The position numbers and the translations under genes are program-made. Below, one piece after another: positions 3,790 to 56,082 of a stretch of 64,000 nt of DNA. The first letter of the stretch is position 1. Every line of letters begins with the position of its first letter. The notes below the pieces were generated by a model that made no database searches, was not told where the DNA came from, and worked only from the letters and a program-made list of their open reading frames with translations. The DNA is taken from NCBI GenBank assembly GCA_037043015.1, contig CM073323.1:14257758-14321757 (forward strand), read 5' to 3'. This stretch comes from Bryum argenteum (taxonomy: Eukaryota > Streptophyta > Bryopsida > Bryales > Bryaceae).

Positions 3790-5121
3790 TTAACCCATAA
3801 ACGTCCCAACCTATTTTTAGCCAAAAAAACACATTTTCAGAATAATTGTCATGTATGAAATTGAAGGTAATTTATTCAAATTCCAACTATACAATCTTGT
3901 AATAGACTTATTGTAGGTCATGTGGGTCAAATTTAAAACCATGAGGCTAATAGATTGCAAGATCATAATGTATTAGTACTCAAAATAGATTCCAGAATTT
4001 CATCACTTTCACTTTGAGGTGGAAATGTTACCAATATACCTATTGCAGTAGAAAAAATCACTATCTAGAAAGATATTTACATTCATCTTAATGAGACCTT
4101 CTCCCAAAAAAAGTTTTTCAAAGTACTTTCTTGGCTCACATAATAGCCTTGCAATGGTGAAAATTGCCCTAAAGTTTACAAAGGAAAAAAGTCCAAAAGT
4201 AAACCCCTTGTACTAAAGTGCATATAACTAATATTTAACTAATTATGGACTTATTTGCAACTTATGGACTTTTTGCAACTAATGAAGAACCTTGGTTTTA
4301 TCGGCAGCCAGCCGATACATCCCCACATCAACGACTTTCAAAAGGCCATAACTCAGTCAAATTCTGTCCAAATCAAAAATATGAGGTGTTTTTTGACATC
4401 TACATTTTTCGTAAATATCAAAAAACACCTCATATGTTTAATTTGGACAAAATTGACTGAGTTATGACCTTTCAAAGATTACTGATGGAGTTTAAAGGTA
4501 ATATCGGTGAACAACCGACATTAATTCTGGACTAAGAATTTGTCCAGAAGTAGTGAAATATCAGTCATATCATGTCTTCATTGTAACTTGGATGAATTTA
4601 AGGTTTCTACGACCATAAGTAAACTCAAATTAGAGTTCAACCCAACAAACAAAGTTGAAATTCATTGATGAATGAAGGAGAAAGAACTTCTCAAAAACCA
4701 TGTAATTCTTAATTCTTTTAATGTAGAAACATCATCAAAAATCCCATACCTAAAATATTTAAAAAATAATCTTCCAACAACAAAATTGCTGTATTTCATC
4801 TTAAGCTCATACTTATGCAAAAAAAAAAAAAAAAATCATGAAAAACTAGATTAGATTTCACATAATTGGCTTGCAATCATAAAACATGCCCCATATTTGA
4901 AATGCCAAAAACAAGAGTTGCCTTCACTAAAATGCTTGCTATGAATTTCATACTCTCTTGTATAGGTTTGCAATATTTGCAGACAAACTAGACTTGATTT
5001 GGGACCTAACCCTAGTGATTTCATCCAAAATAGACCTTGGATGAAGAGGCTATGGCTCTTCAAAGTTGTTGCCTTCTATCCGAAGTGTTGTTCTTGTACG
5101 TTCGGTGCGTTTAGGGGTTAA
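3790..5121 (+). mobile_element. TTAA-flanked piggyBac-like non-autonomous element
   Basis: Ends 3794-5117, flanked by TTAA at 3790-3793 and 5118-5121. The left end is CCCATAAACGTCCCAACC; the right end read inward is CCCCTAAACGCACCG. It has no transposase ORF. Internal sequence is shared with the elements at 5290, 12073, 18522, 19035, 33762, 35154, 37330 and about 48410, so this is the main family. A 327-bp foldback element (4233-4559) is inserted in it, which accounts for its extra length over the usual 0.95-1.03 kb. Confidence 0.7.
4233..4559. mobile_element. 327-bp foldback MITE with long internal hairpin
   Basis: Begins ATTTAACTAATTATGG and ends in a degenerate inverse of this (gtagtgaaat); the copy at 29850-30176 keeps the better terminal repeat CATAATTAGTTAAAT. 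Internally GGCCATAACTCAGTCAAATT and its reverse complement, each followed by the two arms of AATATGAGGTGTTTTTTGA, form a long stem around 4340-4475. Both copies are exactly 327 bp. The apparent AT/TA target duplication is ambiguous. Confidence 0.65.
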
Positions 5122-5289
5122 TAGACACACTTGAATGAGACCAAGTTGTTTTTCCATATTGGATACCTTCCTTATATTTGCTTAAGACTTGTGCGTTTTA
5201 GATTTTAAAGCCTTTGTTGATAAGTATTCTTGTAATCTCACATGTAACACATATCATTGTTCACCATTTTCCCTATCTTTCACGAAACT

Positions 5290-6032
5290 TTAACCCCTAG
5301 AAGCCCTTTTCTATTTTTAGCCAAAAAACACAATTTTGAAAAATGTGCCATACATGAAAATGAAGGTAAGCTCTTTAAATCTAAATCGTACAAAATTGTA
5401 ACAAACATATTATATAATATTGTGGACCAAAATTTGATTTATGAGGCTACATAGATTGCAAGATCAAAATGTATCACTATCCAAAACAAACTTCAAAATT
5501 CCATCAATTCCACTTTGAAGTGAAAAAACTACCAACAAACCAATGGAAGTAAAAAAATGATCAACTAGAAAGTTGTCACATTCATCTCAAAAAAACCCTC
5601 ACACTTAAAAAATGCACCATAGAAATATTCTTGCGTGGATCAAATGAATGGTGAAAATTGTTTAGAAATGGAAAAAAGTCCAAAAGCATCCCGCTTGCAC
5701 TCAAAATCTATAAACTACCTTCAAGTCACCTTTGTGTGGGTCAAGGTTTCCACTACTAAAGTTACACTCTAATTGGAATCCATCCCAAAATAAAGTTTTG
5801 GTGAATGAAGGAGATATAGCTCCTCAAAGATATTCCATTGTCACTTTTTTCACTATAAAAATATTTTTCCCCGAATTTAATACCAAAAGTATTTGGATGT
5901 AAAGCTTCCAAGTAGAAGGTTGTTGGTAATCATCCTAAGATCACACTTGTGTAAAAAAATTCATGAAAAAGAATTTTTTCATTCAAAATAAGGGATTGGA
6001 ATAGTGAAACAAGCCAAATGTTTCAAAGAGTG
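5290..6032 (+). mobile_element. TTAA element, 3'-truncated copy
   Basis: Starts TTAA then CCCCTAGAAGCCC and follows the main family internally (ctatttttagccaaaaaacaca, 'gaggctacatagattgcaagatc', 'gtgaaacaagccaaatgtttcaaa'). I cannot find the right end or its TTAA, so about 0.3 kb is missing. Confidence 0.55.
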
Positions 6033-6312
6033 GAAACTTAAGTGTATGGAAAAGCATAAGCTCTAGTTAAGCTTACTAGAGCTCAATTTTCGGCATTGCG
6101 CTATTATTGACAGTTCTACTCTACACATGATAGAATTTGCCTCAAGCTTTGAGAGTTCTTAGTCTTTGCATCTGTTGAGTAAAATGGAAGTATTTGGGTG
6201 AGTTGTGTTCATATAAACGGCTTGGGTATTACACCTACGAAGGCATTCTACATCTTGTTGATGTTGAGTAGTAAAAAGGTTCAGCCAGAGAGTGAGAACA
6301 TTGACAAGCAAA

Positions 6313-7402
6313 TGTTGAACTCCGGCGTGTTTTCACTCCATCCCTCTGATGCTGCCGCCAGCATGCGTCCAAGAAGGTCGTTGCCGAAAGAGTCCATTTT
6401 ACGCCGCTCACTGATGAGGCCTCGGAGGAGAGCATCTACTTCGGAACTCATGTGATACAGCATTCTATTTTCCTTTCGTAGGAATTCGCCTGCACAAATA
6501 CGCTTTGCTGCGCACGTACGGTTTTAATGAGTTGTTGTGCAACAAGTGCCTGGAGCTTGAAGATTTGTTCGCCTATTTTGAAATCGTCACCAAAAGCTGT
6601 CCGCGAGATGATTCTTCCCGAGATCTTGTGAAGATCTGGCGCCACATCGACTTCCGCCTCGCCGCCTCCATCAGCTACCATGTTCTCCCACTTCTGTATC
6701 TCGGTCGCTGCTCCGTTCACCATCGCTTCCACCATGGCCTGCACGCACACCATATCCAACTAAAATTATTACCTATATATTACTCTCAGATAGCTCCAGA
6801 AAGTTTGATTGCCACTTACCTTGAGAGCATCTTGATGAAAGAAGGGATTAATTGTGCGTCTCTCCAAACTCCACTTCTCGCCTCCCGAACTGAGCAGCCT
6901 TCTACCAACCACGACTGCGAAGAATTGATGAAGCTCAGACCTCGTCAGGGACTCGTGATTGGTGATAATCAACTCTTTCACTACTTCCGGGTCTCGCACG
7001 ACTAGTCGCGTCATTGATCCCCACCGGTAGACGAACATTTAACCTCCTCAAAGATCATCTTTAGTTAGAATAGCCACAAAGTAACTCGAACAAGTTAGCG
7101 TTTGACGATCGAGTTGTATACCATATTTTGAGAAGTACGTGGCGTACTAAGGAGTGACAGTCGGCGACAAATTGGCGTAGTCATTCATCGAAAGATTGTC
7201 AGGAGGCGATTGAGAGGACTTGACCGTCTTCATGCCGTGGCCGAACGGAGGTCCTCCAATGCCCCACTTTCGCCATAATGCGACGCAGTCTCAGCTGCTC
7301 CCAGAGCGCATTCCTTGCAAGCTTCAGTACGAGGTACACAAGCACGCTTGCCACCACCACTGCGAGAGCGTTGGTCACATTCGCAGACATGGTTGCTGCC
7401 AT
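6313..7402 (-). pseudogene. CYP72-clan cytochrome P450, truncated copy 1
   Basis: Remnant of a membrane-anchored P450 mono-oxygenase. Exon 1 (7122-7402) starts MAATMSANVTNAL with a hydrophobic anchor. Exon 2 (6820-7043) has MTRLVVRDPE and GEKWSLERRTINPFFHQD. A fused exon 3-4 (6313-6738) has AMVEAMVNGAATEIQKWE, ISGRIISRTAFGDDF and SSEVDALLRGL. Lesions against copy 2 (30991-32847): a 1-nt insertion in exon 1 after RRIMAK shifts the frame; the first codons of exon 2 give TAA (7039-7041) where copy 2 has AAA; exon 2 has a small deletion; intron 3 and the adjacent coding sequence are missing; and everything after NTPEFN, including the I helix, ExxR and heme-binding Cys, is lost. It does keep serine where copy 2 has a stop. 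Clan assignment rests on copy 2's C-terminus. Function unknown. Confidence 0.85.
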
Positions 7403-8420: not shown

Positions 8421-10060
8421 CTATTCCCACTTCTCGGCCACCAAGTTGGCCAAGTCCACCACCCTCTGCGAGTATCCCCACTCGTTGTCGTACCACGCAA
8501 CAACCTTCACGTAGTCATCTCCCATGACCATCGTCAATGAGGAGTCCACAGTCGATGAAACGTCCGTGCACCTGAAGTCCACTGACACCAGAGGCTCATC
8601 GCACACTGCCAACACTCCCTTCAACTGGGGGGTGTTGCACGCATCCCTGAATGCCTGGTTCACCTCCTCAGCGAACGTCTTCTTCTCCACCTGCACCACC
8701 AGATCCACCACCGACACGTTCGGGGTAGGCACACGCAGCGCGATACCATTGATCTTGCCCTTCAGCCTCGGCAGCACCAGCGCCACAGCCTTCGCTGCTC
8801 CCGTCGACGTCGGCACAATGTTCAGTGCCGCGGCACGGGCTCTCCTCAAGTCACGGTGAGAGGCGTCCAGCAGCCTTTGGTCACCAGTGTACGAGTGGGT
8901 GGTGGTCATGGTGCCCTTAATGATTCCGAACTTCTCGTCCAACACCTTCACGAACGGTGCCAGGCAGTTGGTGGTGCAAGACGCATTGCTGATGATCTTG
9001 TCCTCGTGCTTGTAGTCCTGCTCGTTCACGCCCACCACGTATGTCGGGATGGGGCCCTTTCCGGGAGCGGTGATGAGAACCTTCTTGGCTCCGGCTTCCA
9101 AATGCTTGCCAGCTCCGGCCTCGTCAACGAAAACTCCGGTTCCCTCGATCACCAGATCGATGCCCATTTCCCTGCACATGCAATCGAACATATATCAACA
9201 TACGATCCACATTGCCAACTACATTGCCTGTCCGCCATTGAGCACATGTCGTCGAATCACCATCAAATTCACACCCAAAATTCATGCTGACTTACCCCCA
9301 TGGCAGGTTGAGCGGGTTCCTGTCGGACACCACCTTGATGACCTTGCCGTCAATGCTGATGCCATCGTTGCCAGCCACCTTCACATCGGCATCGAAGGTA
9401 CCCAACATGGAGTCGTACTTCAACAAGTGCGACGCCTGCTTCACGCCTCCGGTGTCGTTGATCACCACGACCTCCAAGGGAGAGTCCTTCCTTCCGTGCC
9501 AGCACCGGACGAAGTTGCGTCCGATACGCCCGAAGCCATTAATGGCGACCTTGATCTTAGCCTCAGTCACAGCCCTCGTAGCTCCAGAGCTGGCAGCCTA
9601 CACCACCACACATTGCCCAAAACACTCAAATTCCACTCTGTACTCACTCAAATTCAGCTACATAACTCCTCATTACTAAGATACATCAGATTTAGCGACT
9701 CTGGATAACATTCCTTCGAGATCAAAGCACGGGAATGAACATACCACAGCGGACTGAGCAGCCACGACCATAGCGAGGTCATCGGAGCGCTTGCCGAATG
9801 TCACAGCGCTGCTGTTCTTCATGCCAGAGAATTCAGCGAATCCATTGGACCCAGCAACCTGCCCAACACGACATCCCCACATCAGAACTCAAATTCGCCA
9901 ATTCCACAAAGCTAACTGATCAAGTACCAGGGGGTCATTGGCAACCAAATGAGCCAGCTGGGTGCTTGAGCTGTGACCAGCGCGAGCAATGCAGGGCGTG
10001 CGTTACCTTGAGCGAGGCAGTGGAGGGAGCAGAGGCCGCGGCGAACGCGGTGGCGGCCAT
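8421..10060 (-). CDS. GapA: Plastid NADP-GAPDH subunit A, tandem copy A
   Basis: Calvin-cycle enzyme of the chloroplast stroma that reduces 1,3-bisphosphoglycerate to glyceraldehyde-3-phosphate with NADPH. Four exons join in frame by GT-AG introns: 10007-10060, 9745-9858, 9296-9597 and 8421-9171, giving 406 residues. Exon 1 starts [13 protein letters not shown] and with exon 2 forms the transit peptide, which keeps the [13 protein letters not shown] stretch typical of GapA precursors. Mature part: NGFGRIGR dinucleotide-binding motif at 76-83, SCTTNC with catalytic Cys222, then the [16 protein letters not shown] region. It ends VAEKWE without the C-terminal extension of GapB, so it is the A subunit. 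Residue 377 is Tyr in GDDYVKV, where copy B has Met. Copy B lies about 5.9 kb away in the same orientation. Upstream it shares a 28-bp block and a GATAAG box with copy B. Splice sites are my reading, but lengths and phases agree exactly between copies. Confidence 0.96.
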
Positions 10061-10184: not shown

Positions 10185-10185
10185 G

Positions 10186-12072: not shown

Positions 12073-12763
12073 TTAACCCTTAAACACCCAAGGGGGTTCT
12101 AAAACGAGAAACTTAATTTTTTGCAAAGTTTCATAAATGAAAATAAAGGCAAGCTATCTAGATATTTACCGTAAAGTCTTGAAGTATACTTGTGGTAAGT
12201 CATGTGGATCAAATTTGGAGTGATGAGGCCTCATAGATTGCAAGATCATAACAGTTTGGTACCCAAAAAAAATCAGCATTTCAGCATTCTCACTTTGAAG
12301 TGAATATGCTAACAACAAGCATATTGCAATGAAGAATTCACCAAATACAAGTTTATTCAACCTCGCCTCAATAACACTCTTGTACATAGGATTTATAAGA
12401 AAAAATTCTTCGCTCAAATAATAGCCTTGCAAGGGTGAAAATTGCCAAAATAACAGTAAAGGAAAAAGGGCCCAAATCTACACACCTTGCACTCGAATTC
12501 TTGCCTTATCTTCAAAACACTTTCAATTGGGTCAAGTTTTTTACCACTTAAACTATACGCTATTTGGAACCTATTCTAGAAAAAAAAGTAGAAATCCAAC
12601 GGTGATAGAAGGAGATATAGCTCCTTAAAAATTATCCACTTATTCACTTTATTCATTTTAGAAACATCATTGAAAATCAAATACCAAATAATTTGGATAA
12701 AAAATCGTCCAACTACATACTTGTTATACTTCATCTTAAAATCATGATTACATAGATGAAAAT

Positions 12764-12829
<66 letters not shown>

Positions 12830-13112
12830 TTTATTTATTTTTAATTTCTCCTCATAATTGCCTCACAATGATACCACATGCCTCATGTTTAAAAATCCAA
12901 AAAGAAGAGTTGCCTTCACTAGAATGTAGTCACTTATTCATACTTCATTTTATGAGTCTGCGTTTTTTTCCACACAAACAAGACTTGATTTGGAACCCAA
13001 CTCAAGTGAATTCATCCAGAATGGAGTCCACATAAAGAAGTTATGGCTCTTTGAAGTTTCTATCTTTCATCCAAATTGTCGCTTTTCGACATCTTGGGCT
13101 TCTAGGGGTTAA
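12073..13112 (+). mobile_element. TTAA-flanked piggyBac-like element (1.03 kb)
   Basis: TTAA at 12073-12076 and 13109-13112 bracket 12077-13108. Left end CCCTTAAACACCCAAG; right end inward CCCCTAGAAGCCCAAG, so 12 of the 16 terminal bases pair, including the last six. No ORF. Contains an (AT)n run of about 55 bp at 12767-12821. Best-preserved intact member of the main family. Confidence 0.75.
12767..12821. repeat. (AT)n microsatellite
   Basis: Uninterrupted AT dinucleotides followed by a T run, inside the TTAA element at 12073-13112 and absent from its relatives. Confidence 0.95.
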
Positions 13113-14230: not shown

Positions 14231-15983
14231 CTATTCCCACTTCTCGGCCACCAAGTTGGCCAAGTCCACCACCCTCTGCGAGTATCCCCACTCGTTGTCG
14301 TACCACGCAACAACCTTCACCATGTCGTCTCCCATAACCATCGTCAACGACGAGTCCACAGTCGATGACACGTCCGTGCACCTGAAGTCCACTGACACCA
14401 GAGGCTCATCGCACACTGCCAACACTCCCTTCAACTGGGGGGTGTTGCACGCATCCCTGAATGCCTGGTTCACCTCCTCAGCGAACGTCTTCTTCTCCAC
14501 CTGCACCACCAGATCCACCACCGACACGTTCGGGGTAGGCACACGCAGCGCGATACCATTGATCTTGCCCTTCAGCCTCGGCAGCACCAGCGCCACAGCC
14601 TTCGCTGCTCCCGTCGACGTCGGCACAATGTTCAGTGCTGCGGCACGGGCTCTCCTCAAGTCACGGTGAGAAGCGTCCAGCAGCCTTTGGTCACCAGTGT
14701 ACGAGTGGGTGGTGGTCATGGTGCCCTTGACGATTCCGAACTTCTCATCCAACACCTTCACGAATGGTGCCAGGCAGTTGGTGGTGCAAGACGCATTGCT
14801 GATGATCTTGTCCTCGTGCTTGTAGTCCTGCTCGTTCACACCCACCACGTATGTCGGGATGGGACCCTTTCCGGGAGCGGTGATGAGAACCTTCTTGGCT
14901 CCGGCTTCCAAATGCTTGCCAGCTCCGGCCTCGTCAACGAACACTCCAGTTCCCTCGATCACCAGATCGATGCCCATTTCACTGTGGTATACACATTCCG
15001 CGTCTAGAAGTTAATATCACTTTGACGCATACCACCCGCCGTACATTGCAAATTTACACAACATTGAAGATTCTACCCACATGGTTCAACGCTGCATCAA
15101 CAGCAAACACGACCTACAGCTTAAATTCATGTGCTGAAAGCATTCACCAGATATGATGCTGTATAAAGAAATGATGTGAGATGATTGCGAGATACATACC
15201 CCCATGGCAGGTTGAGTGGGTTCCTGTCGGACACCACCTTGATGACCTTGCCGTCAATGCTGATGCCATCGTTGCCAGCCACCTTCACATCGGCATCGAA
15301 GGTACCCAACATGGAGTCGTACTTCAACAAGTGCGACGCCTGCTTCACGCCTCCGGTGTCGTTGATCACCACGACCTCCAAGGGAGAGTCCTTCCTTCCG
15401 TGCCAGCACCGGACGAAGTTGCGTCCGATACGCCCGAAGCCATTAATGGCGACCTTGATCTTAGCCTCAGTAACAGCCCTCGTAGCTCCAGAGCTAGCAG
15501 CCTACACCATCGCACATTGCCGAAGAATGTGAGAATTCCATAACCTCACAACTCACCCAACACTAAATATGTCAAATTAAGATGATAAAGGTGAACGTAC
15601 CACAGCGGACTGAGCAGCCACAGTCATGGCGAAGTCATCAGATCGCTTGCCGAAGACAACGGCGTTGGTGCTCTTCATGCCAGAGAATTCGGAGAATCCA
15701 TTGGACCCAGAAACCTGTAAAACGCAGATTGTCAGATAATCCACCAATTCCGACTAACTGCATGTCACTCACCAGATCACAGTCGCCCCAATTTACTCTA
15801 ACCCAAAGGACCGATCGAATTTCATGCATCTTAACAGGAGCATGAGCCATAGGTAGAATGTATAATGAGCAGCAATCAATGCGATCCGATTGAAGAATGT
15901 GGCAATGCGATGCAATGCAAGGGGGATACCTTGAGGGAGGAGGTCGCGGGCGCAGAGGCCGCGGCGAACGCGGTAGCAGCCAT
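14231..15983 (-). CDS. GapA: Plastid NADP-GAPDH subunit A, tandem copy B
   Basis: Second GapA gene with the same role and architecture as the copy at 8421-10060. Exons are 15930-15983, 15601-15714, 15200-15501 and 14231-14981. Their lengths (54, 114, 302, 751 nt) and intron phases are identical to those of the other copy, giving 406 residues. Catalytic SCTTNC and NGFGRIGR are present. Residue 377 is the family-typical Met in GDDMVKV. The transit-peptide exon 2 differs more ([26 protein letters not shown]) than the catalytic exons, which are about 98-99% identical at nucleotide level including silent sites. Introns differ in length and cannot be aligned by eye: intron 3 is 218 bp here and 124 bp in copy A. 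No lesion is visible, so both copies look functional. Confidence 0.96.
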
Positions 15984-18521: not shown

Positions 18522-19034
18522 TTAAGCCTTAAACATGCCCAATGTTGAAAAATGACATTTTGGATGAAAGGCGGAAACTTTGGAGAGCCCTAACTTCTAC
18601 TTCTATACTCCGTTTTGGACGAAATTATTTGGATTGTGTTCCAAATTAAGTCTAGTTTGTGTGATCAGTTTTTGGGACTTAAACAAAGAAGTATAAAATT
18701 ACGGCATGCATTTTAGTGAAGGCAGCTCTTGTTTTTAGGTTTTCAAACTTTAGGCATGTTTTACCATTGCTAGTCAATTAAATCAAATTATGATTATTTA
18801 TTTATTTATTTGTTTATTGCATAATAATTAACTTAAGATGAGTTCCAACAACTTTCTAGGTGGAAGATTTTTAATCCAAATGATTCTAGCATTGGATTTG
18901 CTACATATTTTCTAGGTTGAAAATAGTGACAAAATGGAGACATATGAGGAGCTAGATCTTCTTCATCTATTCTTAGATTTCATCTTCTTTTAGGGTTGGA
19001 TTCCAATTTGAGTCTAGTTTTTGTTGTACAAACC
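18522..19034 (-). mobile_element. TTAA element, inverted and truncated copy
   Basis: Begins TTAA GCCTTAAACATGCCC and continues as the reverse complement of the main family (tgacattttggatgaaag, aactttggagagccctaact). It breaks off at 19034, where the next TTAA element begins. Confidence 0.6.
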
Positions 19035-20000
19035 TTAACTCTTAAACACCCAACCGGGGTTTAGAAATTCGAAACATAATTTTTTGCAAAGTGTCATAAA
19101 TGAAAATGAAAGCAAGCTATCTAGATCTCAATCTTAAAGTAAACTTGTTTTAGTTCATGTGGGTCAAATTTGGGGTCATGAGGCCTTGTAGATTGCAAGA
19201 TCATAACATATTAGTACTAAAAAAAGTCATAAAATTTAAGCATTCTCACTTTGAAGTGAAAATGTTATCAACAAACATATTGCAATGAAAGATTCACCAA
19301 CTACAAAGATGTCCGGTCTCATGTCAACAAGACTCTTGTACAAGAAGAATTCATCCCAAAAAAAATCTTGGCTTAAATTATAGCTTTGCAAGGGTGAAAA
19401 TTACCAAAATATTTACAAAGGAAAGAGGGTCCAATTCTACACCCTTAACACTCAAATTCTTGCCATATCTTCAAAACAACTTCGGTTGGGTCAAGTTTTT
19501 TCCCAATCAAATTATACTCTATTAGGAACCTAGTCCAAAAAACAAAGTTGAAATCTAACGGCGGATGAAGAAGATATAGCTCCTAAAAAATCATCCACTT
19601 TTTCACTTCTTTCATTGTAGAACATAATCAAGAATCCAATAACAAAAGTATTTGGATTAAAAAACTTCCAACTAGAAACTTTTGATTTTTCATCTTAAGA
19701 TCATGATTGTGTATAAAAATTAAATTTTTTATGATTTCCCAAAATTGCCTCACAATGGTAAAGCATGCCCCATGTTTGAAAACTCAAAACTAAGAGTTGC
19801 CTTCACTAAAATGCACGCCAATTAGTCATACTTCATTTTAAGGATTTACAATTTTTATCGCAAAATCTAGACTTCATTTGGGACCCAACGGAAGTGATTT
19901 CGTTCAAAACGGAGTCCGGATGAAGAAGTTATGACTCTTCAAAGTTTCTGCCTTTCATCCAAAATGTCGTTTTTCGACATCTTGGGCGTTTAAGGCTTAA
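19035..20000 (+). mobile_element. TTAA-flanked piggyBac-like element (958 bp)
   Basis: TTAA at 19035-19038 and 19997-20000 bracket 19039-19996. Ends are CTCTTAAACACCCAACC and, inward from the right, GCCTTAAACGCCCAAG. Internal sequence follows the main family throughout. No ORF. The right TTAA is also the left TTAA of the element at 19997-20333. Confidence 0.7.
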
Positions 20001-20333
20001 CCTCTAACTTTTCTTGTAGCTTGAAATGGGTTTTTGCACTTTTGGGCAGCCTAAATGAAGGGGTTAAAGCAATAATCTTCTTTAGTATTTTTACGGGTTG
20101 CTTCTTATACTGCAATGTGTATGTGGTAAAATTTGCAAAATTGGCAAACATCCAATGGTTAATTTTTGGAAAAGTAACAAAATATAGTATTGGGTACAAG
20201 ATAATACGGTCAGAAGTTTATATAAAGGAAACTTTTTTGGTTCACACCCCTGGAAGTGCATAGAGGTAGGAAATTGCACTTTTAAGGTTTCAAGCTCCCA
20301 AAAAAACCAAGGATATTTTAATAAGGGTGTTAA
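19997..20333 (-). mobile_element. TTAA element, second family (shorter copy)
   Basis: Reverse-oriented relative of the element at 29093-29677: shared stretches are GGAAGTGCATAGAGGT, AGGTTTCAAGCTC and ACTGCAATGTGTATGTGG. Left end TTAA CCTCTAAC; right end ATAAGGGTG TTAA, with two extra bases. 329 bp, with an internal deletion relative to the 577-bp copy. Confidence 0.6.
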
Positions 20334-29092: not shown

Positions 29093-29677
29093 TTAACCCC
29101 TAAAGATCCTTGTGTGTTTTTGAGAGCTTGAAACCTCAAAGTTGCGGTTCTTTACCTCTATGCACTTCCGGGGTTGTGAAACAAAGTTTCTCCCTTTTTT
29201 TTAACTTCCAACTGTAAGATCGTGCATCTAAGAGTATTTTTCGTTACTTCTCCAAAAATTGCCCGTGGGATGTTTACCATTTGAGAGATCGTAACTTTCC
29301 AAGTTTTTCTCCCAAGTTTTTGTGGGCATTGTCAAGATTGTTTTTGACACCTTTTGAGGTTGCCCTTGTAAAACTGGTACTCTTTTTGACTTGGAGCCCT
29401 TTGGAACTTAAGTAGTGATTTGGTTATGAACATATTTCCCAATTTTTTTTAAAAAAAAAACATTAAATTTAAACTGCCCAGTTCAACTCGCAAAACAAGA
29501 ATTTTTGTAAAAGACTCCGAAATTGAAATTTGGATTTGCAAATTTTACCACATACACTTTGCAGTATAGGGAGCACCCATTAAAAAATTAGTCAAAAATA
29601 TTACTTTTAACCCATTCATCTAAGCGGTCCGATGTAACAAAAGCCCCATTTGGTCCTCTTGGATCTTTAGAGGTTAA
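29093..29677 (+). mobile_element. TTAA-flanked element, second family (577 bp)
   Basis: TTAA at 29093-29096 and 29674-29677 bracket 29097-29673. Ends are CCCCTAAAGATCCTTG and, inward from the right, CCTCTAAAGATCCAAG: 14 of 16 bases match. Internal sequence is unrelated to the 1-kb family apart from the first bases. No ORF. An inverted, internally deleted relative lies at 19997-20333. Confidence 0.7.
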
Positions 29678-29849
29678 GGTAACATGCTCAATATTTGGAT
29701 GAACTTCGTACAAGTAAACTCAATGTCTGAGTGAGTGGTCAAGGATGTAAGTTTTGGAAAATGTGCAAATTTTGTATAAGATTGGACCAATTGAAAACTT
29801 AAATTTTAGATCTATCTTAAACCAATTATGAATCTTGAAAATAACCTAT

Positions 29850-30176
29850 ATTTAACAAATTATGGACTTATTTCCAACTTATGGACTTTTTGCAACTAAT
29901 GAAGAACCTTGCTTTTATCGGCCACCAACCGATACATCCCCACATCTGCGACTTTCAAAAGGCCATAACTCACTCAAATTTTGTCCAAATCAATCATATG
30001 AGGTGTTTTTTGACATCTACATTTTTTGTAGATATCAAATTCACCTCATATGTTCAATTTGGACAAAATTTGACTGAGTTAGGACCTTTCAAAGATTATT
30101 GATGGAGTCTTAAGGTAATATCGGCGGATAGCCGACATTATTTTTGGACTATGAATTTTTTCATAATTAGTTAAAT
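29850..30176. mobile_element. 327-bp foldback MITE, second copy
   Basis: Same element as at 4233-4559. Ends ATTTAACAAATTATGG and CATAATTAGTTAAAT. The internal stem arms are the same (AATATGAGGTG-type and its inverse near 29995-30055). High identity to the other copy suggests recent movement. Confidence 0.7.
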
Positions 30177-30990
30177 ACGAGTTAAATGAGAGCAATATAT
30201 ATACCTAAACCTCAACACTCTTAAATTTGTTCGATGTCATAAGGTAACAACGTCGTCACAAGGTAACAATGTCAAAAATTATGGAGTATTAGAAAGCAAT
30301 GTCGTCACAAGGTAACTATGTCGGAAAATGTAAAGTATACAAAAAAATATGTACATTTTAAAAAAGTGGATAGAGTATTCATTTGCCTTATGTATGCCGA
30401 GAGGTCATACTTCCAGTAGTATGACTACCAACCCCTCTCATGGTGAACTCTATGCTAATTTGCTATGAACTACTCCCTAGGAAAAACCTAACATGTTGGC
30501 TTCCTAAGGGCTTTGAGGTACACCCATACAACAAGGTCCACAACCTCTCGTCATAATTGAGTATAGTATGACTGATTTGGAGAGTGAAAGCCACAACCTC
30601 CTCATTCCCAACCATGAGCCCCAATGAGCCCCAATCAGCGAGCCAAGGCTTGTGGTGCCTCCCTCTACATGTAAGCAAATTGCCTAAAACCGACAAGATG
30701 AAGAAATGACTTCATGTACGTGGATTAGTCATTGACAACGTTACAATCAGCATGTACTCTATGTGCCGAAAGAACCTTTTTCCTTCTTAGTCTCTATAGA
30801 ATCTCACATGCACAACCATTACAATATTTTTTGAATCGGTCTCCTTGATACTCTCCTTGTTACTTTGCTCATTCACAACAAATTTCTCCATACCTATTTT
30901 TGAGACGGATTATTCTCCAACCTGGTTGGAATTTGCAGTTATAGAGCATGTTACCTTGCAAGCTTCATCGGCAACGACGAAGGGATCGTT
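30177..30990. other. AT-rich spacer
   Basis: No gene seen. A short local repeat (gtcgtcacaaggtaac) occurs twice near 30245-30320. The 3' UTR of the P450 copy may reach into its right edge. Confidence 0.4.
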
Positions 30991-33548: not shown

Positions 33549-35055
33549 GGGTCACTTCATACTATGGACCAAGAGCCATGACTAGGAAAATTGAACTCAT
33601 TTCATTATCCTGGCTCTTTGTTAAGAGCCGTTATCAAGAAAAATAAATCATTATCGTGGTCATGGCTCTTGGTCAAGAAGTGTGACCATAAAAATCACGA
33701 AGCAATGAATAGTGGCTTGGTCACTCTTTGTAGTGTAAAGTGGATTGAGATGGGGACAAGCTTAACCCTTCATTGCGCAAGGTGTCAAAAAACAACATTT
33801 TGGATAAAAGGTAGAAACCTTGAAGAGCCATACCTTCTTCCTCCGGACTCTGTATTGGACGGAATTGCTTGCGTTGGGTCCCAAACCAAGTCAAGTTTGT
33901 GTGCTAAATATTGCAGACCTGTAAAATGAAGTATGAATAAATGAAGTGCATTTTAGTGAAGGGAGCTCTTGTTTTTGAATTTTCAAACATGATGCATGTT
34001 CTATCATTGTGAGGCCATTATAAGATATCAAAAATAGTTTTTCATAATTATTTATATATAAACATGATCGTAAGATGAAGTATAACAACTTTGTAATTGG
34101 AAGATTTGTGATCCACATACTTTTGGAAATGGATTTGCAATGATGTTCCTACAATGAAAAGAGTGAATAAGTGTATGATTTTAAGGAGCTACATCTCCTT
34201 CATACAACCGTTGGATTTTGACTTTGTTCTTTTGAGTAGGTTCCAAGTAGAGTTTAGTTTAAGTGGTAAAAACCTTGACTCAGTAGAAAGTGTTTTCAAG
34301 ATAAGGCAAGAATTTGAGTGCAAGGGGTGTAGATTTGGACCCATTTTCCTTTGTTAATATTTTGGTAGTTTTTACCTTGCAAGGCTATTATTTGAGGAGA
34401 TGTACTTTTTTGATAGATCCTTTTTGTACAAGAGTGTTGTTGAGATAAGGCACAACAAAGTTGGTGAATTTTTCATTGCAATATGTTTGTCGATAGCATT
34501 TTCACTTCAAAGTGATAATGCTGAAATTCTTGAATTTCTTCTTGAGTATCAATATGTTATGATCTTGCAATCTATGAGGCCTCATGACTCCAAATTGGAT
34601 CCATATGACTTACAACAAATATACTACAAATTTTTAGAGTTGAAATCTAGAAAGCTTGACTTCATTTCATCTATGACACTTTGCAAAAAATTATGTTTAT
34701 AGGCTGTAGACTTCCCTTGGACGTTAAAGGGTTGAGCTCAATATTCTAATATAAATCCTCATCATTCTCTTTTATATCCTCCTTTTCTTCCTCCTTTTCT
34801 TAAACTAATTGAACATTAGCCAACCAATGATTTTTGAGCCTCATGGTCTCCTCAATTGTAGTTGTGTTGAGGCATTTGCTTTGACTCAGCTCTTATTAAG
34901 GAGACCCTGAAAACATTATCCACTATGAAAACTATAGCTTACTTTGGGGACCTCAAAGTTAGTGGCCATTCTCCTTTTTTCAAAGTAGTGTGAAGCCAAA
35001 TGGAACCAAGAGCATTTTTTTCTTTTAATCATAGATTTTAGAATTCCTTAATTTG
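33549..35055 (-). mobile_element. GGTCGCTTTACACTAT-ended element, inverted copy
   Basis: Matches the reverse complement of 55115-56302: starts gggtcacttcatactatggaccaagagcc, continues through tattctaatataaatcctcatcatt, and ends near agaattcc at about 35050 without the terminal repeat. It is interrupted by the TTAA element at 33762-34735. It lacks the two TTAA elements present in the 55-56 kb copy and so supplies empty sites for them. Confidence 0.55.
33762..34735 (-). mobile_element. TTAA-flanked piggyBac-like element (966 bp, inverted)
   Basis: TTAA 33762-33765 and TTGA 34732-34735 (one base changed) bracket 33766-34731. Ends are CCCTTCATTGCGCAAGG and, inward from the right, CCCTTTAACGTCCAAGG. 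Internally the reverse complement of the main family. Inserted in the element at 33549-35055. Confidence 0.7.
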
Positions 35056-35153: not shown

Positions 35154-36668
35154 TTAACCCCCTCAATGGTTTAGCTCATCTCTACAAAAATAAACACATT
35201 CTCAAAAAAAGTGCCATAAATGGAAACAAAGGTAAGTTACACAAATATCAACCGTACAATCTTGTAGTAAATATATTTTACATCATTTAGCTCAAACTTT
35301 GAATAATAAGGCCTCATAGATTGTGAGATCATAAAAAAATCTCAAAAAACATAACAAAATCTTAGCATTTTCACTTTGAAGTAACAATGCGACCAATAAA
35401 CTTATTGCAATAAAAAAACCACCAACTAGAAGATGTTTACCTTCATCTCAATGACACCCTTGAACAAAATAAAATCCATGAGAAAAACTTCTTCGCACAT
35501 GTGATGACCTTGCAATGGTGAAAACTATAAGAACTTTGACAAAGGAAAAATAGTCCAAAACTCAACCCTTTGCACTCAAATATATGCTTAATCTTTGAAC
35601 ACTTGACAAAACACTTGTATCAAAGATTTCTACCACATGAACTAGAACCAAATTAGAGAACCTCCCAAAAAACAAAGTCGAAATCCAAGGGTGGATGAAG
35701 GGGGTATAGCTTTTAAAAAATCATCCATATATTCACTTTTTTCATTGTAGAAACATCATTGCAAATCCAATACCAAAAATTTCTGGATCCAAAATTTAGA
35801 AGGTTAACAACTTTCTATGAAAAATCTTTATATATAAAAGAATAGGGTCCCTGTCCGACAATCCTTCCTACCTACCAAACATTCCTACCCATTAAACCTT
35901 CCTACCCAACGTACCAACCTACCATCTTACAAACTTACCAACCAATCTATCTACCTATCTTCTTTTATGTTTTTTGGATTATGTAAATTAAAATGAATTA
36001 AATTAAAATTATATTTTCAAAAAAAAAACACGGACATATATAAAAATAATATGGCATGGTAGATACAAGATACTTTTTTAAAATACCACAATCCTTTGTA
36101 CCCACCAACTTACCAACATACAAACCTACCAACTTACGAAATTACCAACCTACCTACATTTTTTTTACGTTTTTAAAATTATGCATTAAAAAAAAGAAAA
36201 AATGAAAAAATGAAAAAAGTAAAAAGAGAAAAATAAAACAAAAAACATGGGCATATATAAAAATAATAAACATAACACCGTTTAAGGAAATGATAGACAA
36301 GGGAGATGGTAGACAAGGGATACTTTTTTGAAAGTACCATATAAAGAGCTTACCCGTCGAGACGACGGGTATCTTACTAGTAATATATAAAACTTTGTTT
36401 GATTTTCCATACTTGCCTCACAATGGTAAAACATGCCCAATGTTTGAAACCTCAAAAACAAGAGTTGCCTTCACTAAATTGCATATCATTTATTCATACT
36501 TAATTGTATGGGTTGAAAATTTTTATCACACAAACAAGACTTGATTTGGGACTGAAGTAAAGTGATTTAATCTAAAACGGACTCTCAGTGAAGAAGTTAT
36601 TACTATTCAAAGTTTCTGCCCTTCGTACACAGTGTTGTTTTACGACATTCGGCACATTTAGGGGTTAA
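35154..36668 (+). mobile_element. TTAA-flanked piggyBac-like element containing a Helitron
   Basis: TTAA at 35154-35157 and 36665-36668. Left end CCCCCTCAATGG; right end inward CCCCTAAATGTGCCG. Length without the inserted Helitron (35826-36380) is 952 bp, matching the intact relatives. Main-family sequence resumes after the insertion (cttgcctcacaatggtaaaac). Confidence 0.7.
35826..36380 (+). mobile_element. Non-autonomous Helitron (555 bp)
   Basis: Starts TCTTTATATATAAAAG and ends CTAG, flanked by A on the left and T on the right: the canonical A|TC...CTRR|T arrangement. Six bases before the CTAG is a perfect 8-bp hairpin, ACCCGTCG AGA CGACGGGT (36352-36370). No Rep/helicase ORF. The interior contains two imperfect direct copies of about 250 bp rich in 'ctaccaac' and 'acatatataaaaataat'. 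It lies within the TTAA element at 35154-36668. Confidence 0.85.
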
Positions 36669-37329: not shown

Positions 37330-37709
37330 CTTGTTTCAGCGACAAAACATCATTGGAAATCCAAAAGAGAAAGTATTTTGGATCAAAAACTTCCAACAAG
37401 AAAGTTGTTAAGAACACCTTAAGATCATGATTATTAAATTTTAAATAAAAATAAATCATGAAAATCTCATAATTGGCTTGCAATGATAAAAAATTTCCCA
37501 TGCTTGGAAACTCAAAAACAACGGCTTCTTTACTAAAATGCATGCCGTTAATTCATACCTTAATATTTGATAGGTCTCAAATTTATAACACACGAACTAG
37601 ACTTGATTTCGGAGTTTATCCAAAACGGACGATGTACAAAGAGAGTATGGCTCTTCACACTTGCTTCCTTCCATCCAAAATGTGGTTTTTCTATATTTGG
37701 AGGGGTTAA
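37330..37709 (+). mobile_element. TTAA element, 5'-truncated copy
   Basis: Only the right third of the main family, ending GGAGGGG TTAA at 37706-37709. The left part is missing. It shares 'catctatcttgtttcagcga' with the fragment near 48750, so those two form a subgroup. Confidence 0.55.
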
Positions 37710-39151: not shown

Positions 39152-39519
39152 TTAACCCTTAAACGTCAGGCTATACGGATTTGGGCAGCCCAGTATTGGA
39201 TCACAGCATCTTTTGGACTCGGGCATCATGAATAGTGCACTTTTTGAACTTGGGCATCATGAATGCACCAATCAATGATGAGCTTGCAACCTCCTACAAG
39301 TATTGTACAACCCCAACCTACCTACCACAATCCTTTCAAACCATAAATCATACATACAAATTGTGATTTGAATTGTGAAATTTCACTTTTTGAATGCATC
39401 ATAAGACGGTGACCAGTTTGACATCAAAATATAAGTGAAAAGTTGAGTACATTGAGAGCTACAGAGAAGATTCTGTTGGAAAAGGACCCCTCGGGTCACC
39501 TTAGACGTTTAAGGGTTAA
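39152..39519 (+). mobile_element. TTAA-flanked element, third family (360 bp)
   Basis: TTAA at 39152-39155 and 39516-39519 bracket 39156-39515. Ends CCCTTAAACGTCAGG and, inward from the right, CCCTTAAACGTCTAAGG. The interior is the reverse complement of the copy at 55713-56082 (ttgggcatcatgaatg, acctacctaccacaatcctt). No ORF. Confidence 0.75.
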
Positions 39520-44647: not shown

Positions 44648-44747
<100 letters not shown>

Positions 44748-44814
44748 CATTTCAAAATTAATTACACTTATTCATCAAAACATGTAAATATAGATAATAA
44801 CTGCACATGGGATC

Positions 44815-45510
44815 TTCAAACCATTGCACATTCCTCCTATTGCAAATGCTTACCATTGCACATTCCTCCTATTGCAAATGCTTACCATTGCACATTCCTA
44901 CCATTGCAGATTTGTATTCTTACCATTGCATCTGCTACCTACCATAACACCTGCTTCCTACCATTGCTTTTTCTTACAATTGCTTATTCCTACCCTTGCT
45001 TATTCCAACCAGTACTTATTCCTACCATTGCTGATTTCTAATCCTACCATTGCAGATTCCTACCCTTTCATATTTCTACTATTGAAGGTTCCTACCCTTC
45101 CAGATTCATCCCATGCAAATGCCTACCATTGCACATTCCTACCAGTGCAAATTTCTATTATTAACATTTTAGATTTCTATTCCTACCATTACATCTAATT
45201 CCTGCCATTGGTGATTCCTAGCATGTAGATTCCTACCCTTGCATATTCCTACCATCGGAGATTCCTACCATTGCAAATGCCTACCATTGGACATTCCTAC
45301 CATTCTAGATTTATATTCATAACATTGCAGATTTCATTTCCTACCATAGCAGCTTCCTACCATTGCATTTGATACCTACCATAACATCTCATTTCTACCA
45401 TTACAGATTCCTACCATTGCTAAATCATGCCACCGCATATTCCTACCTTTGCATATTCCTACCTTTGTAGATTCCTACCATTGCACATTCCTACCATTAT
45501 AGATCTTAAT
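44815..45510. repeat. TCCTACCATTGCACAT degenerate minisatellite
   Basis: About 700 bp of 14-17 bp units (ttcctaccattgcaga and variants), absent from the paralogous position in unit 1 (near 41570). Confidence 0.85.
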
Positions 45511-47639
45511 TCATCAAATCTCTTTCAATGGTACTATACGTAATAAACCAAAATTGTATAGTCATGTTACCGATGCAAGTCAAAAATGGTATTGTAATGT
45601 TACCACTGCAAGTCATGTTTCATCCGTTTGAAATGTTCCAAAATAGTATAGAACCAAACGGAGTAGTCTCGTGAACATTGAAAGTCTCAATTTTTCATTA
45701 TAATATAAACAAAACAATATAAAACCGTATCATCGTATAACCGAAATGATGTAGTAAGACTCGTTACCAATACATTCAAGTCTAAATTTGTGAAGAATGA
45801 CAAGCATAAACGTGGTTCCCTTTTTTTCTAAACTTGTAGGCTACTTTGATATCTCCACCTCGTCAACTCCTTCACTTATAGCAAGTATAGACTGGAGCAT
45901 CACCTCGCCCTCCAGATTTTGAAACTCCACGCTTCTAAACTGAACTCTCAAAGCACCACAACATACAAAATTATCAACATTGCTTCACTTCCCTGTGTAT
46001 GATTCGATGGGAAGCCCCAAATACAGAAATCTACAAATGAACAAAATGTTTCGATTATGATCTACCATGTACCGATATAAATACTCAGTAAGCTTGACAA
46101 TATGTGAACTTAATACATCATATGAAACAAAATTTGTTACTCTTTCTCATAAGTATTGATTACAATATACAAATACAAACCATATTAAATTCCTTGAGTG
46201 ACCTCCATGAGGCGGATACAAAATTGTAGCATCCAAGACAAAAAGTGAGTGAATGCAAAGGGTACCGTTCTGCCAGGCCAACGATGAATACCGAGCTTTC
46301 GGGAAGCTTTCTTCATTGTGGTAACTATAACGCCCATCTGCTTTGCTCCATCGACCAAGCAGAGACGGAAATATGGCACCAAGTCCAATATTGTCACGTG
46401 AAACGGTCCACGTCCTTGCACACACGGCCCTCATCAAACAATTCACATACTGCATATCGAAATTAGGAAAAAGAAAACTCACTCAAAAAGAAAACAAGGC
46501 AACGGAACGGTATAAAAAAGCATTGTATTATTCAAGAAGAAACACATAAATGAATTTTGGCACTCACCCTCTTAATGTGGCATGTCATCAAATTCACGCC
46601 CTTCACTAATTCACGACTACTTCATCACCTCCTGCCTTCCTAACCATTTCATCGTCAAAATGTGCTACCAATGGTGGCTCCTTCTTGATGATGGCGGTGC
46701 TGCGCAGAGCGAGATCAAACTCCGCAGCCATCATGGGATCACCATGGTTCTGTGCATTGCCGTTTTCAAAGTGGGCCTGCTGGGTTGACATGCATGTCCA
46801 GTGATTCTCGAGCATGTTGGGACTCCAAGAATTGTGAAGATGCGGAGATGCGGTAAATGCACAAACTGTGTCTTTGTGACTTGAGATATGGAAACAACGA
46901 TTTCCAAAACTTTTCAAGCTCGTCAGTAGAGATGCTGCTTCCGGAGATGTTGCCACCGTGGGGACACCGAATTTCGTGAATTTCCACCTACCCACACATG
47001 GTCAAGGGCCCTTTCTCGCTCTCCATAAATGTTGAGGGTGAGGGCTGCGGAGTGTTGACTAACGCTCCCAGTTGTCCCAGTTCTTGTACCTCAGCCATTT
47101 CTCGAGTGAATTGTTGGAGACCTAGAGTATCCTCGGAGCATGCGAAGAAGATTGACTTTGAGAAAAAAGTATGGAAAGAGATGAGAGACTAGCGTAAAAA
47201 GGGAGAACAGGAATGAGCTCCTCAAATTGGTAAAAGCAAGGAAGAGCTAGACTTTAGAAAAGTTTGGAAAGAGATGAGAGAGATCTAAGCAAGTAAGTAG
47301 CGTAATTAGGGAGATGAAATAGAAGTTAGAGAGAAGCCATTAGTTTTGGAGGTGGCTGAAGTTAGGTGCAAGCTCTAAAGTGCGAGATGCGAGGTCCAAG
47401 CTGTGAACTGCGAGATGCGAGGTCCAAGCTGTGAAGTGCGGCGGGAGTGGAGTGCGAGATGAGAAGCCATTTATTTTTGAAGGGGGCTAAAGTAACTGGT
47501 GCAAGCTTTGAAGTGCGAGGTGCAAGATGTGAACTGCGACGGGAGTAAAGTGCAAGATGAGAGGTGCAAGTTGTGAACTGCGAGGAGGGGAAATGTGATA
47601 TTTTGGTTCTAGGGACGATCAACACATTAATTACAAATA

Positions 47640-47915: not shown

Positions 47916-48409
47916 CAAAATAGTAATAACTCTATCAATAATAACTTTTATTGGTAAATATTATTCATTTATAAAATAAAGTTCCCACAAGTTTCTTCTT
48001 CAAGTTTCAATATGTATTGTTTCAATAATATTAGTGAACTAGAATTTCTCTGAGTAACAAATATTTTTGTAAAGAATGTTGAAAAACATGAGTTGGATTT
48101 AGTTATACACAATCAGAACTTCATATAGCCCTTGAAATACAGTGTCTAGCAAATCTCAGTCAAAATTAAAAAAATATAACTATCAATGTAGGAAAATTGG
48201 TGATATATTTGTACAAATCACAAATTGTACAAGATAGTACTTTCCGTGGATTACAATTTGATGCAAAAAACAAACCCTCTTTTAGTAATATGAACAAGAA
48301 AATTACACCAAAAGGAAACTGCACCCTATAACTCGGCTTTGCATTCTCAATGAAAGAAACAATATAATATTTTGTCCACTTCCATTTGGAAGCTAAAAAC
48401 AAACACCAA

Positions 48410-48995
48410 GATTACATTATTTTCAATATAGAGTGTAAACTCTACCAACAACCAATCACAATGAAAAAATCACTCACTACAAAGTTATTCACCTTCATCT
48501 CAGAAGCACATTTTCTCAAAAAAACTATTATAAAAAATTTCTTGGTTCAAAAATTAGCCTTGCAATGTAAAAGTTGCCAATATTTTTACAAAGGAATTGT
48601 CCAAAAATAGACCATGTGCACTCAAATTCATGCCTTATCTTCAAAAACTTCTTTAGTTTTGTCAAGATTTCTATCACTAGAGTCACACTCCAATTGAAAG
48701 CCGTCTCAAATATAAAGTTGAAATCCAACTTTGGATGAAGGACATATAGCTCTTCAAGTATCATCTATCTTATTTCAGCGACAAAATATCATTGGAAATC
48801 CAATAGAGAAAGTATTTGGATCAAAAACTTCCAACATGAAAGTTGTTAAGAACACCTTAAGATCATGATTGTAAAATTTTAAATAAAAATAAATCATGAA
48901 AATCTCATAATTGGCTTGCAATGGTAAAACATGTCTTATGCTTGGAAATTTAAAAAGAAGAGCTTTTTTACTAGAATGCATGCCATTAATTCAAA
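48410..48995 (+). mobile_element. TTAA element, internal fragment
   Basis: Main-family sequence (ccttatcttcaaaaacttc, gaaatccaactttggatgaagg, 'ggcttgcaatggtaaaacatg'). Neither TTAA terminus is preserved. Confidence 0.5.
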
Positions 48996-51240: not shown

Positions 51241-51311
51241 AATTCCATCAAAAACTAAATTTTAACTTAAGTTGAGGCTTCAATTATGGAAAGCAACATT
51301 CATTCCCTATT

Positions 51312-51592: not shown

Positions 51593-51599
51593 GGTAAAT

Positions 51600-53950: not shown

Positions 53951-53954
53951 TGTA

Positions 53955-54190
53955 GTCTCTTGTAGTGGTAGTGTCTTCAGTGAACTAGGAAACTATAAAG
54001 AGGTTTTACAGCCACTTATGTCTAAAATAGAAACCTATACAAGTGCGTATACTTGAAAACTTTCATGTGATATATGACATAGTACCCAAGAAATATGCAC
54101 TAGTGATAATAATTCACTATACTCTAAATCTTTTATCAACTTAGATAACATGTAAGAACCCCGTAATATTATGTGCTAATTTCAAACATC
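53955..54190. repeat. Dispersed repeat, copy 2
   Basis: Direct copy of 44217-44460 with a few indels. Confidence 0.7.
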
Positions 54191-55091
54191 TTGTTAATTA
54201 TGTGTTATTTTCAAACATTCTAGTATAATTTATGGTTTGGATTACTCATTAATATCAAATCTTGGTTCTTTTGTGAAACGAGGGTTTATACCAAATAATG
54301 GTTTTTTTTGGAGACAAAAGAAGTATTCAAGTTTGACCTCAATATTTATCAATATTCAAATCTCGCTCCAAAACACAATAATTTTTATTCACTTTTCCAT
54401 TCTCATTCTCATATATTTTTATGAGGCTACCAAGCGCAACACAATATTCGGAATATCGTGATATTTGATTATTGAGATAAATACAAAGATATCACAATAT
54501 TGAAGTAGTGTGGTATTTAAATATTGGGTTGTCAAGCGCAATGAAAAGCAATCATAAGTACAAAATCTTGATTTTCATCTCTCTAAAACACCAAAATTAA
54601 AAATGTCATGATGTATACGATGGTTATAAGTATCTTGGAATTGAATTTTGGTCACATGCATACAAGCTAATGTTCAAATTGATTTCCGGATATGATTTTG
54701 AGAGGTGACATCATTCTAAGTCAATTATTAAATAACATCCATCACATTATGATAAAGAATTAGTAGAGATTCTCACCAAGCTTGGTCCGATGAGACATTC
54801 TTGGTTAAAATAGTGGTGAAAACCCTCATAAAATTACTACACTTTTCTCCTAGTGTTAGAAGTTATTAGAACCTAATATCATAAAAGTCTTTACAATCAC
54901 TCAAGACTGTGTGTAGAGTTTGCTAGTAGATTTTTACGGTTAATCTTGAGACTGTGAAGATATTGAATACTATGGAACTAATGGAAGTATAGTTCTCACA
55001 TAGAATTTTCAAATAGAATGCAAAAGTTATCTTCTCCTCTTCAGATTTTGATCAAGACTTGCTTTGCTCCTCTTAAGGCTAAAGGCTAAAG
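54191..55091. other. AT-rich spacer
   Basis: Nothing supportable beyond short uninformative ORFs. Confidence 0.45.
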
Positions 55092-55365
55092 GTCGCTCTA
55101 CACTATTGACCATGGAATTCTAAAATTTGTGATTGGAGAGTAAAATGCTCTTAGTCCCATTTGGCTTAACAGAGATAGATAGAAACTCCGGTCCCTTTTT
55201 AAGGGGCCGGCGTGAATGAAGTGTACGTTCGTAATGCTAATATCCCGATGGCCACCGGACAGGGGGAAATTGGAAATTTGGCCTAACACTACCTTACGAA
55301 TAGAAGAATGACCACTAACTTGAAGGTCCCCAAAGTAGGCTAAACTTTCTATAGTCAATAGTGTT

Positions 55366-55608
55366 TTAACCCTTAATTGACATCACTGTTTTGAGAAAAA
55401 TGTAACCTCACTGTCCTTTGACCATATTTTAGCATAGATAATTATATAAATCGGAAATGGTGAGTGTCAAGCTAACTTGATTCTCTAAATATTTTAGAAA
55501 AAAACGACCACATTGGGTAAAATCTCAAAATTTGCCACCGTTGAGAATATGGAAGTTCTTGTTCAGATTCGTGGACCAATTTGGTCCCCTGTGTCAATAA
55601 AGGGTTAA
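55366..55608. mobile_element. TTAA-flanked element, fourth family (235 bp)
   Basis: TTAA at 55366-55369 and 55605-55608 bracket 55370-55604. Ends CCCTTAATTGACATCAC and, inward, CCCTTTATTGACACAGG. The interior matches none of the other families seen here. A diverged unoccupied site lies in the inverted host copy around 34898-34905. Confidence 0.7.
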
Positions 55609-55712
55609 TGATCTCCTTGATTATAGTTGAGTTGAAGCAAATGCCTCGACTCAACTACAATCAAGATGAGCATGAGGCTCAAAAATCATTTGTTGGCTAG
55701 TGTTCAATAACT

Positions 55713-56082
55713 TTAACCCTTAAACGCCCAAGCAAGCCCGAGGGGCATGATTCCAACAGAATCTTCCCTGTAGCTCTCACTGTAATCAACTTTTCACTTA
55801 TATTTTGATGTCAAACTGGTCACCTTCTTTTGATGCATTCAAAAAGTGAAATTTCACAATTCAAATCACAATTTGTATGAATGACTTTGTGCTTTGAAAG
55901 GATTGTGGTAGGTAGGTTGGGGTGGTATATAACCTTGTAGGAGGTTGCAAGCTCATCATTGATTGGCCTATTCATGATGCCCAAGTTCAAAAAGTGCACT
56001 ATTCATGATGCCCAAGTCCAAAAGATGCTCTAATCCAATTTTGGGCTGCCCGTTTCAGACCCCATGGGCGTTTAAGGGTTAA
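55713..56082 (-). mobile_element. TTAA-flanked element, third family (362 bp)
   Basis: TTAA at 55713-55716 and 56079-56082 bracket 55717-56078. Ends CCCTTAAACGCCCAAG and, inward, CCCTTAAACGCCCATGG. Inverse relative of 39152-39519. The host copy at 33549-35055 has a single TTAA at the same place (34800-34803). Confidence 0.8.

Follow-up and report, generated by a model that had tools for sequence, protein, structure and literature searches.

Which kind of transposase spread the short, non-coding elements that stand between TTAA tetranucleotides in the genome of the land plant Bryum argenteum? The question is raised by a stretch of 64,000 nucleotides of contig CM073323.1 (assembly GCA_037043015.1, positions 14,257,758 to 14,321,757; called here the window, on contig C3 of our numbering), in which an earlier note, made from the letters alone, had described nine such elements and attributed them to the piggyBac superfamily. 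In our analysis, the elements are very probably miniature inverted-repeat transposable elements (MITEs) of this superfamily, non-autonomous and moved at TTAA by a transposase encoded elsewhere in the genome. The attribution made in the earlier note is supported by the TTAA flanks, the ends of the elements, related empty sites and the presence, in the same genome, of piggyBac transposases with matching ends.

All nine elements (spans are given here with both TTAA copies included) have TTAA on their left side and eight have it on their right side as well, the ninth (33762-34735) ending in TTGA at 34732-34735, in line with the single TTGA that had been described. Their short terminal inverted repeats (TIRs) begin with CCY: CCC or CCT starts 16 of the 18 ends, and both departures (CTC and GCC) belong to one element, 19035-20000. 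Compared over the first 16 bases, the two ends of an element agree at 11-15 positions in eight of the nine; the match is poor (7/16) in 35154-36668. To estimate what chance would produce, 200 order-3 Markov sequences were searched for left ends (TTAACCC[TC]), right ends ([AG]GGGTTAA) and pairs of both 150-1600 bp apart. The means were 0.99 left ends, 1.32 right ends and 0.035 pairs (maxima 5, 6 and 1), while the window holds 8, 9 and 8, respectively, and the earlier description of ends reading CCC(T/C) or close to it is hence borne out. At the scale of the genome (258.8 Mb, 25 contigs), the TIR search pattern TTAACCCTTAAACGCCCA, with at most two mismatches, was found 4882 times in forward and 4899 times in reverse orientation; the control, i.e., the same pattern read backwards, occurred 8 and 6 times. 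With a size of 243-1040 bp (longer where inserts are present), no coding capacity, TIRs and 9781 genome matches to these TIRs, the elements have the properties of MITEs. Family members, including the inserts of two longer copies, occupy about 9.7 kb of the 64 kb, and tblastn with 20 transposases found no match to a transposase in the window at E <= 0.01, in line with the earlier statement that none is present.

Four families can be distinguished. Family A (about 1 kb) includes the elements starting at 3790, 5290, 12073, 18522, 19035, 33762, 35154, 37330 and 48385, which are about 64-92% identical over aligned stretches; the four truncated relatives previously noticed at 5290, 18522, 37330 and 48410 are all related to it. 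Family B (368/370 bp) is formed by 39152 and 55713 with an identity of 88%, family C (585 bp) by 29093 and the copy at 19997, and family D (243 bp) by 55366. The interiors of the four families differ, as had been proposed, since only matches of 10-33 bp are found among the cross-family BLAST matches listed. The element at 19997, for which TTAA on both sides and a slip of 2 nt had been reported, is real: it is a reversed family C copy extending to 20333, its far end reads GGGTG-TTAA, and it has the TTAA at 19997-20000 in common with element 19035-20000. For a wider view, 28 loci were fetched from the genome, L001-L008 by the TIR pattern and L009-L028 by the transposase, and they are hence a biased sample. 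The terminal sequence CCCTTAAACGCCCA is common to families A and B, and L001, a family A copy, matches it at 14/14 positions at that end and 13/14 at the other. The subterminal sequence at the other end of family B contains GAGGGGC and TTCCAACAGAATCTTC, about 24-50 bp in. Around a family-B-like element, L003, L005 and L006 have identical flanking bases, with TTTT at one end and TTAA at the opposite one; the element was therefore apparently multiplied as part of a larger repeat.

In two family A elements the interior is enlarged, by about 376 bp (4224-4599) in the 3790 element and by about 590 bp (35796-36386) in the 35154 element. The first of these inserts is one repeat with 29841-30177 (89% identical), contains an inverted repeat of about 133 bp with 84% identity and is not present in the family A relatives compared; it looks like a foldback insertion.

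In plants, the usual explanation for such flanks would be another superfamily, PIF/Harbinger, whose Tourist-type MITEs are common in plants, small and inserted at TA-rich targets, with a 3-bp TWA (TTA or TAA) duplication. The length of the target-site duplication is thus of importance. Related empty sites are supplied by an older repeat, of which the window has two copies (about 33640-35001 and 55246-56300). When joined at one TTAA, the flanks of 55366-55608 align without gap to 35001-34800 (81% over 202 nt). For 55713-56082, the joined flanks correspond to 34904-34741 at 84% over 165 nt; TTAA is present there once, and a gap of one base lies three bases past it. These two empty sites are good evidence of insertion at one site. 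A third, imperfect one is 56261-56079, to which the flanks of 33762-34735 align (78% over 189 nt). For the remaining six elements, a search with the joined flanks gave no empty site in the window or the 28 loci.

Taken by itself, an empty site with one TTAA is compatible with a duplication of 3 bp as well as 4 bp, which leaves a place for PIF/Harbinger, as do the choice of the nine elements for their TTAA flanks and the fact that no search for a Harbinger transposase was made. However, a 3-bp duplication would free the fourth base on one side, whereas in the nine elements both outermost bases are fixed (left T, right A). Moreover, neither TTA nor TAA accounts for the TTGA at 34732-34735. Finally, in a scan of the window for the TIR at >= 11/14 that did not require TTAA, the full TTAA stands at 10 of 13 sites and TCAA, which is the TTGA case, at one; the two remaining sites (11752 and 51932) look like chance matches. 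The TTGA and this unconditioned scan speak for a duplication of 4 bp rather than 3 bp; the 3-bp duplication, by which the earlier note had proposed to refute the piggyBac assignment, was seen neither among the window elements nor in the scan. TTAA duplicated on insertion, as expected of piggyBac, was found in the nine elements, chosen for TTAA as they were, and the target stands only once at two related empty sites, at one of them as TTCA. Tourist MITEs thus differ from the present elements by their 3-bp TWA, against a 4-bp TTAA accompanied by a piggyBac transposase with a matching end, and with the transposase loci that carry matching ends being piggyBac, a Harbinger origin is highly improbable.

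Regarding the transposase, at least 116 scored matches to the piggyBac domain PF13843 (DDE_Tnp_1_7), from 777 candidates, lie over the cut-off (best 7.4e-82) and are spread over contigs C1-C11, the window contig C3 included. No internal stop is present in 93 of 116 matches by a hand count that leaves frameshifts outside. A score of 258.4 bits is common to six PF13843 matches, and a frame length of 831 to three of these, which hints at near-identical recent copies. Alignment A1 was built from ten frames picked from the 20 transposase loci as open and long. In these ten chosen frames, the catalytic residues D572, D651 and D764, the DDD of a DDE_Tnp_1_7 transposase, are invariant, and the same is true of C866, C869, C877, C880, C885, C889 and H894 of the Cys-rich domain. 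Outside the chosen ten, L009, L011 and L025 are without the full Cys pattern and L013 is without one Cys; the frame of L022 ends early, and a single stop is present in each of L012, L015, L021 and L028. In the PDB, the ten-frame profile matched piggyBat at 3.2e-61 and piggyBac of T. ni at 2.5e-55, the third and last match (0.58) being at the level of chance. As to a viral source, no relative was found among the viral contigs scanned with alignment A1. By DNA similarity, the 20 loci form at least four groups (L009/L010/L013/L018/L024; L012/L014/L019/L020/L022/L025-L028; L016/L023; L017/L021, with L015 close), L011 standing alone.

The frame of L010 counts 897 codons from stop to stop and 886 from the first Met; compared with animal proteins, it reached 2e-29 with piggyBac of T. 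ni and 7.7e-24 with piggyBat. PF13843 covers positions 426-799, about 425 residues precede it, and no Pfam match beyond PF13843 was obtained at E <= 0.1. A reading of L009, L010 and L013 as complete autonomous elements of 2.2-2.6 kb was rejected: the apparent right ends have an identical flank, are overrun by the L010 frame and are followed by continuing homology, which makes them internal TTAA sites. In L010, short tandem repeats (L010:651-942), seen as repeated translated motifs, lie between the end of the transposase and the TIR.

Constraint on the frames was estimated from the ratio of nonsynonymous to synonymous substitution rates (dN/dS) in seven locus pairs. Low values were obtained for L010/L024 (0.15), L010/L018 (0.16), L018/L024 (0.07) and L014/L026 (0.24). 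Ahead of the DDE domain, L010/L024 has 0.27, 0.24 and 0.15 in successive 150-codon windows, and this N-terminal stretch is hence probably coding in these two loci. Higher values (0.39, 0.46 and 0.41) were obtained over the first 150 codons of three other pairs, and the next 150 codons gave 0.50, 0.16 and no estimate, which makes the case for a coding N-terminal stretch weaker there. The proteins of L019 and L020 are 94-99% identical from codon 301 and 47-60% identical over codons 1-300, as if the N-terminal part had been exchanged.

How are these transposases connected with the MITEs of the window? The earlier note had suggested searching the same genome for a DDE_Tnp_1_7 transposase with ends matching the TIRs, and such genes exist: at 7 of the 20 transposase loci (L009, L010, L013, L016, L018, L023 and L024) a TTAA with an end matching CCCTTAAACGCCCA at >= 11/14 positions is located behind the gene, 588-974 bp past the end of the transposase frame. 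A second motif, the GGGCAGCCC box, lies 27 bases from the TIR start in L009, L010, L013 and L018 and is found at 7/9 in L024, L016 and L023 being without it; the same box is located at 26-27 in 39152, 55713, L002 (8/9) and L006. On both strands of the 171 kb analysed, the exact GGGCAGCCC occurs 10 times, always in family-B copies or in the four transposase ends. These shared ends and boxes are a direct link between family B (368/370 bp) and the piggyBac transposases. For family C the link is weaker: the first 213 bases of 29093 match, at 72% over 215 nt, an end 1.06 kb behind the L028 transposase, and L028 and L012 diverge right behind the gene, so that the L028 end may belong to a neighbour. 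As piggyBac is mostly an animal superfamily, the transposases could also be conceived as contamination or as a separate invader, with MITEs unrelated to them. Their distribution over eleven contigs, that of the window among them, and the shared TIR and GGGCAGCCC box at +27, which tie them to the window MITEs, make this explanation most improbable.

We also considered whether the L021 transposase could have family A as its MITE and rejected this, because the similarity between them (84-102 nt, with no TTAA end) is internal and in the wrong orientation. Near this piggyBac transposase, about 100 bp (L021:3049-3151) resemble subterminal sequence of family A, with an identity of at most 87%.

Several observations weigh against the piggyBac assignment or loosen the link with the transposases. 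The window elements were all chosen originally for their TTAA flanks, which is a selection bias. In the unconditioned scan of window and loci together, which leaves out eight sites anchored by the search pattern, TTAA stands at 19 of 30 sites; at >= 12/14, it stands at 11 of 15, with TTTT at three (copies of one larger repeat) and TCAA at one. The empty site for 55366 reads TTCA and that for 33762 has a 6-bp indel beside TTGA. Behind the gene, 11 of the 18 loci examined (L011 and L025 are outside this set) have no end at >= 11/14, and the transposase-bearing elements are known from one end only and not by both TTAA copies. The GGGCAGCCC box at >= 8/9 accompanies just 8 of 31 TIR ends, and its near matches at this threshold number 20 in 171 kb with one strand counted. 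Regarding the frames, dN/dS indicates no clear constraint in L009/L010 (0.53) or in L019/L020 (0.52 overall and 1.65 over the last 450 codons, at small distances), and it gave no estimate for L016/L023. Finally, families A and D share with the transposase loci just the TIR and, for D, its first part.

This last point gives some room to Kolobok or Sola3, superfamilies that also use TTAA and for whose transposases no search was made; one of them might move families A, C or D and leave only family B to piggyBac. Nevertheless, the terminal CCCTTAAACGCCCA is common to A and B, as the two ends of L001 illustrate, and family C resembles the end behind the L028 piggyBac transposase; we consider such a division of the families unlikely.

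In the piggyBac mechanism that we favor for these MITEs, a transposase from elsewhere in the genome would bind ends of the CCCTTAAACGCCCA type together with nearby boxes, cut the element out and insert it at TTAA, with TTAA left on both sides. Cut-and-paste at TTAA is proposed because of the superfamily membership and the empty sites; by analogy with animal piggyBac, cutting may be of the hairpin type and followed by seamless repair. The transposases described above would be those that move the MITEs, and families A, C and D may use the same or sister transposases.

In animals, for example in insects, piggyBac-derived MITEs are short and non-coding, have TTAA and CCY ends and reach many copies. 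The elements described here are alike in size, ends and copy number, and they differ by their plant host and by the presence, within 64 kb, of four families with unrelated interiors. Moreover, TTAA on both sides and short CCC-type TIRs are common to this system, to piggyBac of T. ni (PDB 6x67/6x68) and to bat piggyBat (PDB 9c0f), as are the same DDD in one long frame and a C-terminal Cys-rich domain, and the profile match covers nearly the whole animal protein. Unlike animal piggyBac, the present system has a land-plant host and TIR matches in thousands; the approximately 425 residues before PF13843 in L010, under purifying selection in L010/L024, are a further difference. For comparison, excerpts of two articles give 500-725 aa for beetle piggyBac transposases (PMC12732532) and TIRs of 12-19 bp starting with CCYT for piggyBac (PMC10175614).

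The piggyBac kind of element is hence already known, and it is its host and its numbers that deserve attention here. In the excerpts concerned, piggyBac is presented as a superfamily of animals, fungi and protists, with plants as occasional hosts and red algae as example (PMC12732532), plants are listed among its hosts in a paper on PGBD5 (PMC3902484), a survey reports PiggyBac in all groups studied, land plants included (PMC4438587), and a plant review names it among the superfamilies (PMC10794571). For Ceratopteris, 1230 PiggyBac fragments amounting to 122 kb are tabulated in the part of the article concerned (PMC6890710), and in the moss Niphotrichum the matching passage contains merely the word piggybacking (PMC10619864). 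Our search of the literature on piggyBac and TTAA elements, mostly among titles and with subscription journals and repeat databases outside its scope, gave no title on abundant native piggyBac elements in land plants. We give even chances to the proposal that the endogenous piggyBac system of this land plant is large and diverse, that it is active or was so until recently, and that its several transposase lineages, at least one of them with an unusually long selected N-terminal region, drive thousands of MITEs. If true, a native plant transposase could serve for seamless excision. At least 116 transposase matches in one plant genome together with thousands of matching ends, and 20 loci in at least four groups, provide candidate native transposases for laboratory excision assays. 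They also raise the questions of how piggyBac entered plants and persisted, of whether it is silenced there, and of whether it has been overlooked in other plants because repeat libraries lack it.

Table 1. Elements, relatives and empty-site repeat in the window (positions counted from its first letter).
Positions	Length (bp)	Strand	Feature
3790..5121	1332		Family A element (about 1 kb), TTAA on both sides, extra interior at about 4224-4599
5290..5961 (approximate limit)			Family A relative, truncated, single TTAA-CCCC end
12073..13112	1040		Family A element, TTAA on both sides
18522..19034			Family A fragment, opposite orientation, stops where the 19035 element starts
19035..20000	966		Family A element, TTAA on both sides, ends CTC and GCC
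19997..20333			Family C copy, reversed, internally deleted, 2-nt slip at far end
29093..29677	585		Family C element, TTAA on both sides
33762..34735	974		Family A element, reversed, TTAA/TTGA; imperfect related empty site in 56079-56261
34741..35001		-	Older-repeat copy without the insertions of 55366 and 55713 (related empty sites)
35154..36668	1515		Family A element, about 590 bp of extra interior, ends match at 7/16
37330..37709			Truncated family A relative, single GGGG-TTAA end
39152..39519	368		Family B MITE; GGGCAGCCC box at +27 from left end
48385..48993 (approximate limits)			Truncated family A relative
55366..55608	243		Family D MITE; related empty site in 34800-35001, other strand
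55713..56082	370		Family B MITE, 14-bp perfect TIR; GGGCAGCCC at +27 from right end

Apart from these elements, an Rfam scan of the window found nothing, and its protein domains include CAF-1 subunit A, P450 and protein kinase. The gene at 14234-15010 (minus strand) has its closest PDB matches among entries under the name GAPDH A, of which several are chloroplastic (best 4e-145), and it supports a plant origin of the window. Two chloroplast-type GAPDH A gene copies are present, at 8421-9597 and 14231-15501, and they are 97-99% identical in the two 300-bp stretches compared. Finally, a diverged repeat array with mostly 16-bp spacing extends over 44809-45529 and adjoins a long TA run.

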